Shown here: piece by piece, positions 53,305 to 61,395 of the stretch
Layout of the letters: each line of letters opens with the position of its first letter
How positions within the stretch are numbered: the stretch's first letter is position 1
Source of the DNA: Aminobacter sp. AP02
GTDB taxonomy: Bacteria > Pseudomonadota > Alphaproteobacteria > Rhizobiales > Rhizobiaceae
NCBI RefSeq assembly: GCF_003148805.1
Contig: NZ_QGGX01000008.1
Coordinates: forward strand, 62,001 to 126,000
Direction: 5' to 3'
DNA: 64,000 bases
Made by a program: the position numbers and the translations under genes
The notes under the pieces: generated by a model
Told to the model about the DNA's origin: nothing
The model's input: only the letters and a program-made list of their open reading frames with translations
Database searches by the model: none

Positions 53305-54792
53305 GTGCGTCAAGCGTTGCCGGGCAAAGTCCTAAAGTCGGCTATCTCCATCAAATCGTTTATGGTTTTTACCCTCGCCGCGGCCATTGGCCTGGCGTCG
53401 GCCGCCCCTACCTCGGCGGCGAAAGACAGCAGATACGCAGCGATCGTCGTCGACGCGAATACAGGCGAGACGCTGCACTCATCCAATGCGGATTCCCGGC
53501 GCTATCCGGCGTCGCTGACCAAGATGATGACGCTCTATTTGACCTTCGAGGCGCTGTCCAAAGGCCGGATTCAGAAAGACTCCAAGGTCGTGTTCTCCAA
53601 GAATGCCGCCGCTGAGCCTCCGACCAAGATTGGCGTGAAGGCCGGCGGATCGATCTCGGTTGAATCGGCAATCCTGTCGCTCATCACCCGTTCGGCCAAT
53701 GATTCGGCGACTGCGCTCGCTGAAATGATCGGCGGCTCGGAAGCGGACTTCGCCCGCATGATGACGGCAAAGGCGCGCAGCCTCGGCATGAACGGCACCG
53801 TCTTCCGCAACGCCAACGGCCTGCCCAATACCGCTCAATTCACCACGGCGCGCGACATGGCCAAGCTCGGCATCGCGCTGCGCGAGCATTTCCCGCAATA
53901 CTATGGCTACTTCTCGACCCGCAGCTTCGCCTTCGGCCGGCAGCGCATCGCCAACCACAACCGCCTGCTCGGCCGCATCAAGGGCGTCGACGGCATCAAG
54001 ACCGGCTATACCCGGGCTTCGGGCTTCAATTTGGTTTCGTCGGTGCAGGACGGCAACCGCCGCGTCGTTGCTGTCGTCATGGGTGGAACCAGCGGTGCAA
54101 GCCGCGACAATCAGATGGCTGAGCTGCTCAAGACCTACATTCCGCAAGCCTCCAAGCGCGGCGGCGGTGGCGACCTGATCGCCAAGACCGATACCCCCGC
54201 TTTGATGGCAAAGCTGCCCAAGAGCAATGCGCCGACGCCGGACATCCGCCCCGTGGCTGCAGAAATCGAAGTTGCCGACGCATCGGCGGACGAAGCAGTG
54301 GCAACCGACGATGCGGTAGCAGTAGCTGCAGTCGCCATTCCCGCGCCAAAGCCGGTCATCGGGCTTGCAGCGCAGCCTAAGATCGCCATGGCCTCCGCCG
54401 AGCGTTTTGGCGGCAAGCTTCCTTTCCAGATCCGCAAGGCCAAGGATAGCGTGCCCGCCGCCTCCGACGCCGGCGTCGAACAGGCATATGCAGCGCCGGC
54501 CCCTGCTGTTGCCGCACTCGACCAGATGAAGACCGCATCGCTTCCTTCCGGCTGGGCCATCCAGGTAGCCTCCTCGCCCAGCGAAGGCGAAGCTCGTGCC
54601 CTGCTCGATAAGACCGCCAAGCAGGTGCCCGCGGTTCTGGCCGACGCCTCCGGCTTCACCGTGCCCTTCGAAAAGGGCGGCGTCACCTACTTCCGCGCCC
54701 GCTTTGCCGGCTTTGAAACCAAGGACTCCGCCTGGAATGCCTGCAACGCGCTGAAGAAGAAGAAGATCGCCTGCTACGCCATCGCGCAATAG
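53305..54792 (+). CDS. D-alanyl-D-alanine carboxypeptidase with C-terminal SPOR domain
   Basis: A 495-residue penicillin-binding protein of the PBP5/6 type: GTG start with AAGGG 8 nt upstream, then an N-terminal signal segment (about 12-39). The active site is SLTK (Ser70, Lys73), SAN, and KTGYT. It removes the terminal D-Ala of peptidoglycan stem peptides. Instead of the PBP5 C-terminal beta domain and amphipathic anchor there is a 150-residue Ala/Val-rich linker and a SPOR domain (GWAIQVASSPSEGEARALLD to the end), which binds denuded glycan at septa. No downstream partner; it converges with the J-protein gene. Confidence 0.93.
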   Translation: MRQALPGKVLKSAISIKSFMVFTLAAAIGLASAAPTSAAKDSRYAAIVVDANTGETLHSSNADSRRYPASLTKMMTLYLTFEALSKGRIQKDSKVVFSKNAAAEPPTKIGVKAGGSISVESAILSLITRSANDSATALAEMIGGSEADFARMMTAKARSLGMNGTVFRNANGLPNTAQFTTARDMAKLGIALREHFPQYYGYFSTRSFAFGRQRIANHNRLLGRIKGVDGIKTGYTRASGFNLVSSVQDGNRRVVAVVMGGTSGASRDNQMAELLKTYIPQASKRGGGGDLIAKTDTPALMAKLPKSNAPTPDIRPVAAEIEVADASADEAVATDDAVAVAAVAIPAPKPVIGLAAQPKIAMASAERFGGKLPFQIRKAKDSVPAASDAGVEQAYAAPAPAVAALDQMKTASLPSGWAIQVASSPSEGEARALLDKTAKQVPAVLADASGFTVPFEKGGVTYFRARFAGFETKDSAWNACNALKKKKIACYAIAQ

Positions 54793-54835: not shown

Positions 54836-55531
54836 TTAATGATGATCGGAGAGAAGGACGTCCTTGGCTTCGTTGATCCTCGCCGCGAGGAACGACGAGC
54901 CTCCGAGATCGGGATGCAGGCGCTGAATCAGTCGTCGATGGGCCTTGCGGACGTCCGCCGCGGCGGCCCCCGCTTCAAGACCAAGGACCTTGTAGGCCTC
55001 CTCCTTAGTCATGGCGCCAGAACTTGGCGCAACACCCTGCCCGTTGTCACGGTCAGGCTGCGCGTCTTCGCGCCAGACGGGAAACCGGCCGTCAAGATAG
55101 GTCTCAAGTAGCTGGCGGCTTTCCGGATCTCCGGAAAGCTCCTGATACAAAGCCTTCACCTCGGTAAGGCCGAGCGAAGCAAGCGACTTGCCCTCCTGGC
55201 GGCCAGCCAGGACAAAACCTTGCAGCCCCCCGGTATCGTGGTCCAGTTCCATTTCGAGCGCTGCGGTGCGTACCGTCGATCGCCGCCCAGGCGTCCGGGT
55301 AGCCGATCCGCTCCTTCTGCTTGCGACATACCAAGCTAATGCCGCTGAGATCAGGCCACCCCCGACCGACGCCCGTCCCAACAGCAGCAGTACCAGGCCG
55401 ACAATCCCGAGCATCAGGGGTCCCGCGACCTTCAGCGCACGGGCAAGCTGTGTAGCGTCGGCACGCAGGAATGCCGCGATCGCCAAAGCCGAAAAAAGCA
55501 GGATCGCTGCGATGGCGGCGAAGATTGTCAT
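54836..55531 (-). CDS. Membrane-anchored J-domain protein (Tim14/Pam18-like)
   Basis: A 231-residue protein with two N-terminal membrane segments (about 1-22 and 35-62), a polar middle region, and a C-terminal J domain (about 170-231). The domain holds EEAYKVLGLEAGAAAADVRK, the catalytic HPD at 206-208, and the ending GSSFLAARINEAKDVLL. HPDxGGSxFLAxxINEAKDxL is closely like mitochondrial Tim14/Pam18, as is the order membrane anchor then J domain. It should stimulate DnaK at the inner membrane. It overlaps the upstream VWA gene by 4 nt. Confidence 0.88.
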   Translation of the reverse strand: MTIFAAIAAILLFSALAIAAFLRADATQLARALKVAGPLMLGIVGLVLLLLGRASVGGGLISAALAWYVASRRSGSATRTPGRRSTVRTAALEMELDHDTGGLQGFVLAGRQEGKSLASLGLTEVKALYQELSGDPESRQLLETYLDGRFPVWREDAQPDRDNGQGVAPSSGAMTKEEAYKVLGLEAGAAAADVRKAHRRLIQRLHPDLGGSSFLAARINEAKDVLLSDHH

Positions 55532-56259
55532 GGCGCCTTGCCGCTCCTCAAATGCTCTATCATCAGGATATCCTCCGGACGCCCCCTTGCCTCCAGCGCC
55601 TTGATGCCGCCGGTGGCAAACACCGCGACCGCTGACAGCAGCTTGGACAAGGTCGCTGCGGCTCTACGATCGAAGCGGAACCAGGCACCCTTCGACAGCC
55701 GAGCGATCTCCTTGAAGGCCCGTTCGGCCCCTGCGTCGTGCCCTTCCTGAAAGACGAAGGCCGGCACGCCAAGCAAGCCAAGTCTGCCAGCTTTCTCAGC
55801 CAGTTCGTCGATGTTTTCCTCCATCGCATCGCCGATATAGACCAGCGCATCGACCTTGGCGCTTGCAGTCTCTTTGAGCGCATGCGCCAGAACCTTGCCG
55901 ACCTGCGTCTCGCCGCTGCGGCACTGGATTGATGTCATCAGTTGCTTGAGGGAGCCTGTCTCGGCAACGAATCTTGACGCGCGGCATTCGCCGAGCCCAC
56001 GGAAGTAGACCAATTGTACGTTCAGCCGACCGGTCTTGCCGACGGCGTCGAACATCTGGCCCTGCACCTCGCAAGCGAGGTCCCACGTCGGTTGGCGGCT
56101 CATCGTGGCATCGAGCGCAAGGATCAGGCGACCATTGCCCTTGCCGGTCGCAAGGGCGCGCGCCTGACGCACGAAAGCATCAATCGCCTTGGCATCCGAT
56201 CGTCGATCGGCCGGCGGACGATTTGTTGAGGTAACCGGTGGCTTGCTGTCGTCGCTCAT
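55528..56259 (-). CDS. VWA domain protein coupled to the J-protein
   Basis: A 243-residue cytoplasmic protein made almost wholly of one von Willebrand A domain. The metal site seems intact: LALDATMS (DxTxS), the Thr in SGETQVGKVLAHALKE, and the Asp in YIGDAMEENIDE. No signal peptide or membrane helix is seen. The ATG at 56259 is preferred to the TTG two codons upstream. It overlaps the J-protein gene by 4 nt (ATGA), so the two are made together. VWA proteins often hold partners in multiprotein complexes, frequently with AAA+ or chaperone partners. The function is unknown. Confidence 0.8.
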   Translation of the reverse strand: MSDDSKPPVTSTNRPPADRRSDAKAIDAFVRQARALATGKGNGRLILALDATMSRQPTWDLACEVQGQMFDAVGKTGRLNVQLVYFRGLGECRASRFVAETGSLKQLMTSIQCRSGETQVGKVLAHALKETASAKVDALVYIGDAMEENIDELAEKAGRLGLLGVPAFVFQEGHDAGAERAFKEIARLSKGAWFRFDRRAAATLSKLLSAVAVFATGGIKALEARGRPEDILMIEHLRSGKAP

Positions 56260-56325
56260 CAGCAATCAAGATGTGGCGGCGCGCGTCAGCTTGCAAGCCC
56301 GACATTGCGGGCTGCTAAGTTCGAG

Positions 56326-56763
56326 TTAGAGCAGGCCGAGTTCAGCCAGCTCCAGTCGCAGTTTCGGCGGCATTTCGGCAAGAGTCGAATTGCCTTGACC
56401 AAGATCGGCGGGTGCGTCGGCTGGTTTGAGATAGCGCCAGCCCTGGAACGCCCGACGCGGCTGCCAATCGGTGCGCACGACCGTCGGGTCCAAGATGAGA
56501 TGGCAACGCGAAATGCCTTCGGCATCGGTAAACGGGCGGATTTCGAGCAGGCGCTGGCGGCACTGGACGTTGCCCTTGATCACCCAATAGAGCGAACCGC
56601 CGTCGGTCAGCTCGCCACCACGGGTCGGCACCATGCGAGTGGTATGGAACTGCTCGGCGGGCTCGCCGGCGCGGCGGCGCTCATCGAGGCGAAAAGTGAT
56701 CCATTCCTCAAGGTCTTCGACGCTGTCGCAGCCGACGCAGAGTTTTATCAGGTTCAATGACAT
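56326..56763 (-). CDS. DUF1489 family protein
   Basis: A 145-residue protein of a family almost limited to alphaproteobacteria: LNLIKLCVGCDSVEDLEEWI, FHTTRMVPTRGGELTDGGSL, YWVIKGNVQCRQRLLEI and RRAFQGWRYLKPADAPADLG. The cysteines (C9, C12 in CVGC) are a possible metal pair. The function is unknown. It lies 66 nt before the VWA gene on the same strand, so the three genes may form one operon. Confidence 0.88.
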   Translation of the reverse strand: MSLNLIKLCVGCDSVEDLEEWITFRLDERRRAGEPAEQFHTTRMVPTRGGELTDGGSLYWVIKGNVQCRQRLLEIRPFTDAEGISRCHLILDPTVVRTDWQPRRAFQGWRYLKPADAPADLGQGNSTLAEMPPKLRLELAELGLL

Positions 56764-56902: not shown

Positions 56903-59623
56903 CTAGAACTTGGCAGTCAGCCCTGCCCATGCCGTCCGCCCGGGACCGGGCATTTCGCCCAAACCCAACGGGTCGACATAATATTGATCGGTCAGGTTCT
57001 CGACCCTGAAGTTGGCCGTGACGTTGTCATTGATCTTGTACTCTGCGAACACGTCGACCAGCGTGTAGGGCTCCCACTTCACCTGCGCAATGAACGGGGC
57101 CGCACCACCGATACCATTATCGTGCCCGATCGTACGTGGCCCGGTATGAACGACACGTCCGCCGACAGTAAGCCTGTCATCGAACAGCTGCTGCGAAAGT
57201 GTGAGGCTCAGTGAGTACTGAGGAGGAACCTGGTTCGTGGCGTAGTCTGCGTATAGGGATCGATTGTTGCAGGTATCCGCTGTCGGGCAAAACGATACGT
57301 CGGTGTAGTAGTTCGCTCCGAACTCCGCCGAGAACCCACCCTTCCCGTAGCGCCCCGACAACTCGATTCCCTGGAATTTGGCGGCATAGATGTTCTCGGT
57401 GAACAGGCCGGTCCACAACGATCCTTCGTAGTTGATCAGCCGCATTTGCCTCGACACGTAGTCCTTGACGGTGTTGTCGAAGAAGGCAGCCTTCAGCCTG
57501 AACTCGTCGTCGGCGCTTATGAGTCCGTTTCGATCGACATTGACCCCGAACTCCCAATTGTGGGCGCGCTCGGGCCGCAGTCCGGCCATGACGAATGTAT
57601 AGCCGATACTGGCCGATTCAGTGAGGCTGGGCATGCGAAGACCCTCGGTATAGCGGCCAAATAGCTGCACTCCATCCAGAGGCGTCACCTCCACACCGAA
57701 TGAGGGAACCACACCGCTGCCACTGCGTCTGTCGGTCTGCCCAGGATAGCTCTTGACCGGCGTGTCCGAGAGATCGGAACGATCCTGGGTCGCATAAGCC
57801 TGGTACCTCAATCCACCGTCAAAGGTCATCCAGTCGGTGGGACTCCATTCGGATTTCACGAATGCGGCTGCTTCCTTGCGGGTGCCATTGCGTGGTCCGA
57901 ATGGCTTTTCGAGTATGCGGGTGAATCTGGTGGGCTCGGCGTCCTCATCCAGATACGACGCCCCGTAGTCGCAAGACAGATCGCCCACCGAACTATGGAA
58001 ACGCGAGGTGTTGGTAATGTCGCCGCCCCACATCAAGGTGTCGCTGCCAACGAGAACGCGTGTTCGAACCGGATTGGGAAGCCCCAGTGGTTTGGTGTCG
58101 CTGAAACCGGCGTTCGTTGGATTTCGCAGCGCTGCCGAAGACACGAACATGTTCGCGCGCAGATCGATATGATCATTGTCCGAAGGTTTCCAACGGTATC
58201 GGGCCGTTCCGCTGTCGGTAGATGCGGTCGAGAGCCAGCTCTGGGTTGGCTGGTAGCCGGGGCCAACCATGGAAGATGCCCGTGCCTCCCCGTGCTCACT
58301 TCTGAAGCCGGTGTATGACAGCTCAAGATTGTGGTCTTCGGCAAAGGCAAATTTGCCCTTCGCCAGCCAGGATTTTGTATCCGAAGAGGAGTTCAGGACC
58401 TTCTCGCCGGCCCGATACGCGGTGAGGCCGAGGTTCTTGTAGTATGTCGAATACGGATAGCAGAACTTTCCGTAGCCTGGGTATTCCGCGCAGATCTCGC
58501 CCGGCCCCAGGTTGCCGCTGCTTCGCGCGGACGGCCCATTGGCGCCGGCATAGTAGTTCCCGCTTTTGCGCGCGGCGTATGCGGCAACTACCTCGAAATT
58601 CTCGCCGCGCCCCGCAGCGGCGACGCTGCCGTAGCCTCTCGTGGGCTCAAGAAATGCGGGGCGGTCCAGTCCCTTTGGGCTCGACCTCGGATGCGTGGCG
58701 AAACTTGCCGGATAGAACACGATGCCGCCGGCGTCCCCCCTGACCGGCGATTCGGACGAGTTGGTCCCCGCTCCACCCTTGAGGCGGACGCCGAAACTCT
58801 TACCATCGTCAAGAATGTCGTCCGCCGAGATGGTGCTCATGCTGACCGAACCTCCGATCCCGCCTCCCGGAGCGGAGGATGGACCCTTCTCGATCTTGAT
58901 CCCTCCGATCAGGTCAGGGTCGATGTAGGTGCGGTTTCCGACGCCCTGGTAGCCCTGGTACACGGTCGTCGAGTTTGTCGCGCCGTCGACGGTGACGTTG
59001 ACGCGGCCCATGCCCTGCATGCCGCGGATGTTGATGTCGACCGCGGCGCCGTTTCGGCTTTCGCCCGAAAGCACGCCCGGCGTGCCCCTGAAGATGTCGG
59101 CTGGGCTGGTTCCCCTGAAACGCTCGATGGACTGCTGTGAAATATAGGCGCTCGATCCCGGCGTAACATACGGCTCGTCTGCCGGATTGCCGGCCCCGCC
59201 AGTCACGTTGATGACATTGAGCACCAAGGAACCGTCGGTAGCCGCAGGTGAATGCGCCCCGGAAACGCGGTCGCTGATTGTCACCGTATTTGCACCTGAG
59301 AAGCTGTAGGTCAGTCCGGTGCCCGCGAGCAATCGTGCGACAGCTTCACGTGATGAGAATGAGCCGTTGAGCCCGGACGTCTGCTTTTGCGCCGTGAGCG
59401 AGCTTGGGTAGAGCAGATGGAGATTGGCCTGACGCGCCAGTGAAAGCAGGCCATTTTCCAACGACCCGGCTGCCACTGAAACGCGAACGGTGCCAGATTG
59501 TGCCGGAGCCGTTTGGCCGGTCTGGGCCAGCAGTGGCACGCTGAAGGCAAGCAGTGACACGCTAGCCAGCCCGACCTTTGCGACCTCACGGAACCCGACC
59601 CGCGACCTTTTCGAAAATAGCAT
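56903..59623 (-). CDS. STN-containing TonB-dependent receptor, haem/hemophore (HasR-like)
   Basis: A 906-residue outer-membrane receptor. A signal peptide (MLFSKRSRVGFREVAKVGLA... to about 34) is followed by an STN signalling domain (about 44-118), which marks a transducer that signals to an anti-sigma factor. A TonB-box-like LVLNVINVTGG lies near 133-143. The plug holds VDINIRGMQGMGRVNVTVDG and NRTYIDPDLIGGIKIEKGPS, the pattern of the HasR/haem receptor group. The barrel ends with AWAGLTAKF. GGGGG before the ATG at 59623 favours that start over a GTG at 59650. Haem specificity is inference; ferric siderophore is the alternative. Confidence 0.88.
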   Translation of the reverse strand: MLFSKRSRVGFREVAKVGLASVSLLAFSVPLLAQTGQTAPAQSGTVRVSVAAGSLENGLLSLARQANLHLLYPSSLTAQKQTSGLNGSFSSREAVARLLAGTGLTYSFSGANTVTISDRVSGAHSPAATDGSLVLNVINVTGGAGNPADEPYVTPGSSAYISQQSIERFRGTSPADIFRGTPGVLSGESRNGAAVDINIRGMQGMGRVNVTVDGATNSTTVYQGYQGVGNRTYIDPDLIGGIKIEKGPSSAPGGGIGGSVSMSTISADDILDDGKSFGVRLKGGAGTNSSESPVRGDAGGIVFYPASFATHPRSSPKGLDRPAFLEPTRGYGSVAAAGRGENFEVVAAYAARKSGNYYAGANGPSARSSGNLGPGEICAEYPGYGKFCYPYSTYYKNLGLTAYRAGEKVLNSSSDTKSWLAKGKFAFAEDHNLELSYTGFRSEHGEARASSMVGPGYQPTQSWLSTASTDSGTARYRWKPSDNDHIDLRANMFVSSAALRNPTNAGFSDTKPLGLPNPVRTRVLVGSDTLMWGGDITNTSRFHSSVGDLSCDYGASYLDEDAEPTRFTRILEKPFGPRNGTRKEAAAFVKSEWSPTDWMTFDGGLRYQAYATQDRSDLSDTPVKSYPGQTDRRSGSGVVPSFGVEVTPLDGVQLFGRYTEGLRMPSLTESASIGYTFVMAGLRPERAHNWEFGVNVDRNGLISADDEFRLKAAFFDNTVKDYVSRQMRLINYEGSLWTGLFTENIYAAKFQGIELSGRYGKGGFSAEFGANYYTDVSFCPTADTCNNRSLYADYATNQVPPQYSLSLTLSQQLFDDRLTVGGRVVHTGPRTIGHDNGIGGAAPFIAQVKWEPYTLVDVFAEYKINDNVTANFRVENLTDQYYVDPLGLGEMPGPGRTAWAGLTAKF

Positions 59624-59673
59624 TCCAGCCCCCAAAATAGACAGGGGCACCAGTCAACTGCGGCAAACCCCAC

Positions 59674-59689
59674 TGACTACTAAGAGTCA
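59674..59689 (-). promoter_or_regulatory. Palindrome before the TonB receptor gene
   Basis: TGACT-ACTAAG-AGTCA is a perfect 5-bp inverted repeat with a 6-base spacer in the 111-nt gap between fecR-like and receptor genes. It resembles the TGA-N9-TCA box upstream of the sigma gene but with N10, so it is at best a diverged operator. Confidence 0.3.
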
Positions 59690-59734
59690 AAAAGGGGGTG
59701 CCTCCTGACGTCGGCAGAGAAATTTTCTTGTCTG

Positions 59735-60682
59735 TTAGCGGGAGCGAACCACGACGATCATCCCTGTCAAGTAGTTCAGACGCACCGGCAGGCTTTGCTC
59801 CAGGCTCCGAAGCGCCTTGTCTGTATCATCCAGATCAAAAACGCCGCTGACACGCAGCATCGCAGCTTGTTCGCCGAGAACCAGCAGTGAGCCGTAGCGG
59901 TAGCGTTCCAGCGTTGCAAGCACATCGCGCAACGGCGCTCCGGAAAAGACGAGCTTGTTGTCTTTCCAGGCGACGGCGTTGGCGACATCGATGCGCCGCA
60001 CCGACAATGCACCTTCTTCCGACAGACTTGCCATGTCGCCGGCCTTCAACACCGTATGTTCGGCGCCGCTGCGAACCTCCACGGCGCCCTCCTCGACCTG
60101 CACGTCACCATGGACACCAGAGGACCTGAACGCGAACCGCGTGCCGATGGCAATTGCCGTCATCGTGTCGTCAGCGACGACAAACGGCCGGTCGGGATTT
60201 TTGGCCACGTCGAAGAAAGCCTCGCCGCGCAGCAATTCGACCCGGCGCTCGGGACCGGCAAAACGAACGGCAATCGCGCTATCGGTGTTGAGCGACACCA
60301 GCGTTCCGTCTTCCAACGTCACGTTCCGGACCTCGCCTACAGTCGTGTAGAAGTCGGCGCGGAGGCGATCCACCAAGCCCAGGTGGACAAACATGGCCGC
60401 CAGACCCGCGATCAGGCAAAGGCCGGCAATGTTGGCGATTACCGCACCGCGCGCCGGCCGCAGCTTGTGGAGACGCCGCCGCGCGATCGGAAGATGCTCC
60501 AGGTCCGCCCAAAGCCCCTTGAACTCCTCATAGGCGATCAGGTGAGCGGGATCCTTGGTCAGCCACGCGCGGAAGTCGCTTCGATCTTGATCGGTCGCGT
60601 CGCTGGACTGCAGTCGCGCAACCCAGCCAGCGGCCTCTTCCTCGATCTTGTCGTGCTTCGGTTTGCTGTCGTTGATCGCCAT
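59735..60682 (-). CDS. FecR-type anti-sigma factor
   Basis: A 315-residue single-pass inner-membrane regulator. The cytoplasmic N-terminus has the DUF4880 domain (EEEAAGWVARLQSSDATDQD, FRAWLTKDPAHLIAYEEFKG), which binds the sigma factor. One membrane helix spans about 80-103. The periplasmic FecR domain follows (YTTVGEVRNVTLEDGTLVSL, VELLRGEAFFDVAKNPDRPF), and then a C-terminal STN-binding part. The ATG at 60682 is chosen at the domain start; the longer frame to 60850 is not FecR-like. It lies between the sigma gene and the receptor gene. Confidence 0.93.
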   Translation of the reverse strand: MAINDSKPKHDKIEEEAAGWVARLQSSDATDQDRSDFRAWLTKDPAHLIAYEEFKGLWADLEHLPIARRRLHKLRPARGAVIANIAGLCLIAGLAAMFVHLGLVDRLRADFYTTVGEVRNVTLEDGTLVSLNTDSAIAVRFAGPERRVELLRGEAFFDVAKNPDRPFVVADDTMTAIAIGTRFAFRSSGVHGDVQVEEGAVEVRSGAEHTVLKAGDMASLSEEGALSVRRIDVANAVAWKDNKLVFSGAPLRDVLATLERYRYGSLLVLGEQAAMLRVSGVFDLDDTDKALRSLEQSLPVRLNYLTGMIVVVRSR

Positions 60683-60764
60683 TGCACGTCCCGCTTGGCA
60701 GAGCCTTCCCAGATGAGCAGAAGTTGGTATCGGGCGGCTCGTCGCATTCCTAGCCGACACCGCC

Positions 60765-61265
60765 CTAGAAGGAAATCTCGCCGCGCATCCTCCTGGTTTG
60801 CAGCAAGGCCCTGATGATGTGTCGTTCGACCATGTTGCGGCTGATGCCAAGTCTTGCCGCGATCTCGCCGTTAGACATGCCGTGTATACGGCTCAGGATG
60901 AAAACCTCCTGGCAACGCCTGGGCAGTTCCTCGATCGCCTTTGCCATCAGCAACAGGCACTGGCGCCCGTTGACGACACGTTCGGCATCCGGCGCATCGT
61001 CGGACAATTCGAGATCGGCAACATCGCAGCCACACAATACGGGATCCGTCCGAAATCGCTTGGAGGTCGACTGCGCGACCGATCTTGCGATCTGGAACAA
61101 ATAGGCCTGCGGGTTTTCAATCAGTGTCCTGGGAGCGACAACCATCAAGCGCAAGAAGGTTTCTTGCGCTGCGTCAGCAACATCCTCGCGGTTGGCCAGC
61201 CGCCGTTGGAAGAAACGCTTGAGACGTCCCTCCTCGCTGCGATGCAATTCCTCGATCGATGTCAT
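60765..61265 (-). CDS. ECF sigma factor, FecI type
   Basis: A 166-residue extracytoplasmic-function sigma factor: region 2 about 10-75 (LKRFFQRRLANREDVADAAQ, ETFLRLMVV, YLFQIARSVAQ) and region 4 about 105-160 (LPRRCQEVFILSRIHGMSNG, EIAARLGISRNMVERHIIRA). The order sigma, FecR-like, TonB receptor on one strand is the classical cell-surface-signalling cassette. ATGs at 61316 and a GTG at 61340 are in frame and possible; none has a good ribosome site. Confidence 0.92.
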   Translation of the reverse strand: MTSIEELHRSEEGRLKRFFQRRLANREDVADAAQETFLRLMVVAPRTLIENPQAYLFQIARSVAQSTSKRFRTDPVLCGCDVADLELSDDAPDAERVVNGRQCLLLMAKAIEELPRRCQEVFILSRIHGMSNGEIAARLGISRNMVERHIIRALLQTRRMRGEISF

Positions 61266-61395
61266 TTCATGACTTCGATCTCCGCGCGGGGAAATTAGAG
61301 ATGTATTTCCGCGCATGTCCGCATTGCTGCCGTAATCCACTCGCCCCGACCATGAGATGCCCCACCGATTCTGCCGCTTTCTACGGCAGATAAGT

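Follow-up and report, generated by a model that had tools for sequence, protein, structure and literature searches.

The window analysed here, a 64,000-nt stretch of one contig of Aminobacter sp. AP02, carries on its reverse strand a gene for a VWA-fold protein of 243 residues followed by a gene for a Tim14-like membrane J protein of 231 residues (Table 1). The VWA open reading frame spans 55528-56265(-) and opens at a TTG at 56265, with the ATG at 56259, the start already given by the first-pass annotation, as the preferred initiation codon. The VWA stop and the J start share the tetranucleotide ATGA (55531-55528), and a DUF1489 gene lies upstream on the same strand; the 4-nt overlap and the DUF1489 gene had been described in that annotation and were found as it placed them. 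Its further suggestion, that coupling causes the two proteins to be made in fixed ratio, is unsupported as a general claim because most relatives have a gap between the two genes (the median hit-to-hit gap from VWA to J is 42 nt); the 4-nt overlap itself is not conserved. Convergent with the J gene is a D-Ala-D-Ala carboxypeptidase gene (Peptidase_S11) with a C-terminal SPOR domain, at 53305-54792(+). On the other side, 56903-61340(-) holds, as judged by eye, a large outer-membrane-receptor-like reading frame together with reading frames ahead of it that resemble FecR-type anti-sigma and FecI-type sigma factors. As for a role in defence, no PADLOC match was found at E <= 0.01.

Table 1. Coordinates, in window numbering, of the features of the VWA-J locus
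Feature	Position	Strand	Basis
DUF1489 gene	56326-56763	(-)	Pfam, 190 bits
VWA-fold protein, 243 aa	55528..56259	(-)	ORF, predicted structure, PDB fold matches
MIDAS D50-A-T52-M-S54	56098..56112	(-)	sequence alignment
MIDAS T118	55906-55908	(-)	sequence alignment
MIDAS D144	55828-55830	(-)	sequence alignment
ATGA shared by the VWA stop and the J start, 4-nt overlap	55528..55531	(-)	sequence
Tim14-like membrane J protein, 231 aa	54836..55531	(-)	ORF, Pfam, profile match, predicted structure
Three predicted membrane helices (residues 2-23, 26-50, 54-75)	55307..55528	(-)	AlphaFold2 model
J-protein middle domain, residues 84-157	55061..55282	(-)	alignment and model
Middle-domain patch, residues 85-105 (S85, M94, L96, D97, G101, G105)	55217..55279	(-)	conserved with VWA, mostly decayed without
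J domain, residues 174-230, without helix IV, C-terminal end of protein	54842..55012	(-)	Pfam, profile, model, fold
HPD motif (DnaK-contact motif of J domains)	54908..54916	(-)	sequence

Judged by its sequence and predicted structure, the J domain is Tim14-like. The first-pass annotation had placed a C-terminal J domain behind membrane helices and had pointed to a Tim14-like segment in it, and both observations are borne out: Pfam DnaJ matches residues 179-226 (E 3.1e-7, 30.8 bits against a cut-off of 27.8), three helices are predicted ahead of it, the HPDLGGSSFLAARINEAKD segment is present, and the best PDB match of the J domain is Tim14. With a profile built from 24 relatives, yeast Tim14 scores 65.5 bits and the runner-up in the PDB reaches 32.9. 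Similarly, fold comparison of the J model returns Tim14 at the top (Z 10.4 over 68 residues, 35% identity), followed by a match at Z 8.4. The AlphaFold2 model has a mean pLDDT of 82.7, a low-confidence linker between the middle and J domains, and a pTM of 0.38, because of which the relative placement of its domains is unreliable; the J domain is modelled with helices at 176-183, 191-205 and 213-230 and no others. The fold search with the whole J model is dominated by J-domain matches and thus says little on the fold of the middle domain, a region for which Pfam returned no match. Across 139 non-redundant VWA-J pairs, HPD is kept in all 137 J proteins that have letters at that position, GG and then S or T follow it in nearly all of those aligned, and the median distance from HPD to the protein end is 26 residues. 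From the positive residues that follow helix 1 and helix 3, we infer that the J domain faces the cytoplasm.

The J-domain phylogeny gives a similar picture. Nine ordinary J domains (DnaJ, CbpA-like, DjlA-like and others) fall on one side of a branch supported at 95/95, and yeast Tim14 sits among the alphaproteobacterial sequences, so that the window J domain groups with Tim14 and apart from DnaJ, CbpA and DjlA. The tree comprises 98 rows and 60 columns, its inner forks are mostly unresolved, and the longer helix II-III region of the DnaJ types may contribute to the split. For this tree 57 of the 64 VWA-associated rows were retained after thinning, and one sequence that lacks HPD (L197) was omitted. 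Tim14 appears there as sister to one VWA-type sequence (97/84), a placement that is not reliable.

The VWA partner is recognised by structure more readily than by family models. Its AlphaFold2 model (mean pLDDT 81.4, pTM 0.77) has a VWA fold and matches VWA chains in the PDB at Z 17-19, those of TFIIH, Rpn10 and BatB among them, the top one reaching Z 19.3 over 172 residues with an rmsd of 2.5; Foldseek returned 159 matches at E <= 0.001. Pfam gives only sub-cut-off similarity for the window protein (VWA_3, 14.9 bits against 27), and among 26 members of the group VWA_2 matches 15 (best E 0.00068) and VWA_CoxE weakly matches 5 (best E 0.0092). Since the Pfam VWA models miss the protein at their cut-offs, we call it a VWA-fold protein of a divergent subfamily and not a member of a Pfam family. 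The metal site is, as first proposed, intact: all five MIDAS residues (D50, T52, S54, T118 and D144) are invariant in 139/139 non-redundant VWAs. Fusions of the VWA with other domains were considered and dismissed, the long open frames (for example, 904 codons at L229) being read as out-of-frame upstream sequence. A distant VWA relative is also seen at L240:2-529 (G772), where it is cut by the contig end, and no J gene lies within the fetched 6 kb.

The VWA-J pair is strongly conserved. The first-pass annotation had named two outcomes that would overturn it, absence of the pair from relatives and a J domain that clusters with ordinary DnaJ/CbpA proteins; both were checked, and neither came about. 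Among 61 genomes (60 relatives plus that of the window), 38 have the VWA, and these 38 are also the ones that encode a full-length J protein (E below 1e-15); the two genes are adjacent in 36 of them (lists compared by eye), whereas in G052 and G054 they lie on separate contigs, and a further genome, G039, has only a short J form. Class-wide, the VWA is found in 138/385 alphaproteobacterial genomes and a Tim14-like J protein (E <= 1e-10) in 215/385, including every one of the 138 VWA genomes. With J places listed to about E 1e-30, J lies directly downstream on the same strand at 133/141 VWA places (130 genomes). Of the remaining eight, seven are genomes that keep both genes unlinked, on different contigs or far apart: G142, G257 and G350, from one family; G126, G340 and G418, from another; and G256, on two contigs. 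The eighth, G160, is doubtful and was set apart, since its short-form J lies on another contig and its assembly is 10% contaminated. It carries a stand-alone, diverged VWA with a stop in frame near a contig end (L205:4680-5285). In a phylum-wide sample the VWA was found in 33/398 genomes; three of these belong to one genus that the collection's taxonomy places outside the class, and the pair was present in both of the two that were read. Both genes are likewise kept side by side on plasmids of Azospirillum and Microvirga (L265-L267), three records in which the annotation says only "VWA domain-containing protein" and "DnaJ domain-containing protein". On these large plasmids galU lies beside VWA-J in Azospirillum, and an IS6 transposase within ~5 kb in Microvirga.

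Of the 215 genomes that have a Tim14-like J protein, 77 lack the VWA; the J protein therefore works alone in many species, a point against the paired reading favoured below. From these 77 genomes, 28 were taken up, as were G039 (relatives set) and G160, and also G324, G411, G255 and G291 (the J matches of G411 and G291 are partial). In most of the VWA-less genomes taken up, the J protein is shorter and consists of a membrane segment and the J domain without the middle domain; a minority retain it. Of 32 VWA-less rows (one of which, L178 from G160, comes from a genome with a VWA), ten have a middle domain, and in the other 22 the alignment recognises none. In these ten proteins, the conservation of the middle domain was set against that of each protein's own J domain, with 64 VWA-associated proteins as reference. 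In 8/10 the middle domain falls 2.9-7.1 SD below the conservation predicted from the J domain, the ten rows not being independent, as a single family contributes three of them and a single genus two. The two without such decay are L195 (z -1.27) and L197 (z -0.77), the latter having also lost its HPD. This degenerate relative, at L197:4189-4860 (G255), lies beside galU with no VWA, and in lacking HPD it is like the J-like Tim16.

The decay is not spread evenly over the middle domain. In the long J proteins of VWA-less genomes, columns 87, 94, 96, 98, 99, 103 and 107 are often or mostly decayed, and columns 112-155 are largely kept; alignment columns 87-107 correspond to window residues 85-105, with D97 as the conserved acid. 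Column L98 is kept in 63/64 proteins with a VWA versus 2/10 without, column D99 in 61/64 versus 3/10, and the weakest column, G107, in 62/64 versus 6/10, with column P values that ignore kinship. We propose from this alignment that the patch at residues 85-105 is the VWA-binding face, although its decay could have causes other than VWA loss. Mean-field DCA on the 139 non-redundant VWA-J pairs gave inter-protein scores that do not stand out clearly from noise, with a top of 1.46 against tops of 0.97 to 1.39 in six random re-pairings; this top pair joins VWA column 26 to J column 91, in the middle domain.

Beyond the pair itself, the surroundings differ between lineages (gene names for the neighbours were taken from representatives and from the window's own copies). 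In 49 named loci, mostly from Hyphomicrobiales, the recurring neighbours are DUF1489 (38), the convergent S11 D-Ala-D-Ala carboxypeptidase (44), phasin (31), ClpS (35) and ClpA (35), and in this order the sequence S11 peptidase, then phasin, ClpS and ClpA, is conserved. Forty-one loci from other families have instead galU (28), ugd (27) and pgm (28) downstream, and in 20 of the 41 mipZ precedes VWA-J (the one scanned scores 370 bits with Pfam MipZ). Whether DUF1489, phasin, ClpS, ClpA and the S11 peptidase belong to the module was weighed and decided in the negative, as they are few or distant in other loci where VWA-J persists.

The mipZ linkage extends well beyond these loci. A MipZ search at 1e-50 was positive in 186/385 genomes, with mipZ places listed for 146 of the 186. 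Among the matches listed, mipZ lies directly upstream of the VWA gene, within 2.5 kb, in 50/69 VWA genomes, and the distance is within 300 nt at 42 places. In VWA-less genomes, again among the matches listed, the Tim14-like J gene is preceded by a same-strand mipZ in 9/9, at 75-1185 nt from the J-domain match, and in fetched DNA from other VWA-less J genomes the same is seen in 4/5 (the exception is G130), which makes 13/14 of the VWA-less J genomes with mipZ among those taken up. Four of these loci were measured (L285-L288, from G078, G302, G171 and G073), and the gap between mipZ and J is about -1 to +49 nt. Hence the long and the short J genes share one place, mipZ being upstream of J in VWA-less genomes as well. 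The mipZ-J order seems at least as old as mipZ-VWA-J, and the ancestral locus outside the window's own order appears to be mipZ-[vwa]-J-galU-ugd-pgm. Conversely, 14 mipZ loci from genomes without a Tim14-like J showed no J gene after mipZ (in two of them mipZ itself was missed by a simple motif scan). The window's own genome gave no mipZ match at 1e-50, its best reaching 45 bits; it has two Tim44-domain genes.

The reading that we favour, and hold to be rather probable, is that the J protein recruits DnaK at the membrane and that the VWA protein is its partner, using the metal site to bind the middle-domain patch. The J protein would be an alphaproteobacterial relative of mitochondrial Tim14/Pam18, held in the inner membrane by its N-terminal helices, with the C-terminal J domain on the cytoplasmic side, where HPD would stimulate DnaK. 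The soluble VWA protein would dock on the middle domain of the J protein, most likely with an acidic residue of the patch as a ligand of the MIDAS metal; D97 is the candidate, proposed because such sites usually bind an acidic ligand. Within the physical complex that we infer, the VWA could act as a substrate-selecting or regulatory subunit that determines the targets of DnaK at the membrane; this function would be analogous, not homologous, to that of Tim16 for Tim14. As for the client, our best guess from the neighbours (mipZ, galU, ugd and pgm, and in Hyphomicrobiales the D-Ala-D-Ala carboxypeptidase) is that they hint at one in the envelope or in division.

Another notion is that the VWA is simply one more product of a housekeeping locus transcribed as a unit, with no J partner, and that the linkage serves joint expression only. 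The neighbourhood is indeed conserved beyond the pair, with galU, ugd and pgm in 28, 27 and 28 of 41 loci and the S11 peptidase and DUF1489 in 44 and 38 of 49, and gene order alone can therefore persist. However, the neighbours change between taxonomic orders while VWA-J stays, both genes are kept in the seven genomes where they are unlinked, none of the 138 VWA genomes is without a Tim14-like J protein, and the middle-domain patch tracks the presence of the VWA; in the light of these results we regard mere co-expression as unlikely. About as improbable, in our judgement, is that VWA-J serves division or polarity directly by bringing DnaK to MipZ or FtsZ at the membrane. The position of mipZ would suit such a role, both directly upstream of the VWA gene (50/69 genomes among the matches listed, with 42 places within 300 nt) and upstream of J in 13/14 VWA-less J genomes with mipZ among those taken up, the four measured loci having gaps between about -1 and +49 nt. 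But the pair does not require mipZ, for the window's own genome carries it without a mipZ match at 1e-50, and many genomes have mipZ without the J protein, including those behind the 14 loci in which no J gene was seen.

Some VWA proteins pair with AAA+ ATPases in cofactor insertion, and the MIDAS, intact in 139/139 VWAs, together with the similarity to VWA_CoxE (5/26 members, best E 0.0092), could be taken to mean that VWA-J is a chaperone-assisted device for metal or cofactor insertion, the VWA being a chelatase-like or MoxR-type adaptor and DnaK replacing the AAA+ ATPase. That similarity is weak and confined to a minority, however, and neither a MoxR-type AAA+ gene nor a metalloenzyme was recognised among the recurring neighbours, which leaves an insertion device very improbable in our estimation.

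Tim14 is essential for mitochondrial protein import, and we know of no settled account of the function of its bacterial relatives. A Tim14 relative from alphaproteobacteria (TimB of Caulobacter) has reportedly been published, and the window J protein belongs with the Tim14-type J domains. The present results suggest a two-part bacterial Hsp70 recruiter, made up of a membrane J protein and a VWA adaptor. The middle domain, the short form of VWA-less genomes and the mipZ link are additions beyond the first-pass annotation, and our literature searches, in which subscription papers were thinly covered, returned no description of a J plus VWA recruiter, of the middle domain or of the mipZ link. With a partner encoded next door in almost every case, a metal site that does not vary and a conserved neighbourhood that includes the division regulator mipZ, the system becomes testable at the bench on a few small proteins. 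A more tentative extension, which may well not hold, concerns the origin of the mitochondrial motor: the bacterial ancestor of Tim14 could have been, not an import factor, but a membrane DnaK-recruiter in a mipZ-linked locus for division and envelope, joined across much of the class by a metal-dependent VWA adaptor seated on a dedicated middle domain, and the import motor could have arisen once the old partners were lost and Tim16 and TIM23 gained. Bacteria, to our knowledge, have no TIM23.

Among known systems, DjlA-type proteins combine a membrane anchor with a C-terminal J domain, as the window J protein does. The DjlA model hits the window J domain (E 1.1e-6), but its 28.4 bits fall far short of the cut-off of 162, and the DjlA-like protein of the same genome (L004) sits, at the end of a very long branch, among the ordinary J domains. 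Pairs of a VWA protein and a MoxR-type AAA+ ATPase are similar in having a soluble VWA with an intact MIDAS encoded beside the gene of an ATP-driven machine; unlike in those pairs, the partner here is a J protein, by its sequence a putative DnaK recruiter, and not an AAA+ ATPase. TimB of Caulobacter crescentus is an inner-membrane J protein that Clements et al. reportedly proposed in 2009 as a Tim14 relative. The short VWA-less J forms share the build of TimB, whereas a VWA partner, the middle domain and the mipZ linkage are not known to be features of it. Tim14 itself has one membrane helix, and its build is a membrane segment plus a J domain, as in those short forms. The window J protein is like mitochondrial Tim14/Pam18 and human DNAJC15/DNAJC19 in its N-terminal membrane anchor and in a C-terminal J domain without helix IV, and it has in common with Tim14/Pam18 the stretch HPD-x-GGS-xFLAx-INEAKD. 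A Trichomonas J domain has been tried in place of that of yeast Pam18 (PMC3174187). The window J protein differs from mitochondrial Pam18 proper, whose single membrane helix leaves the N-terminus outside, in having three predicted helices and an extra middle domain, and where Tim14/Pam18 forms a heterodimer with the J-like Tim16/Pam16 and docks to TIM23, the proposed partner here is a VWA protein.
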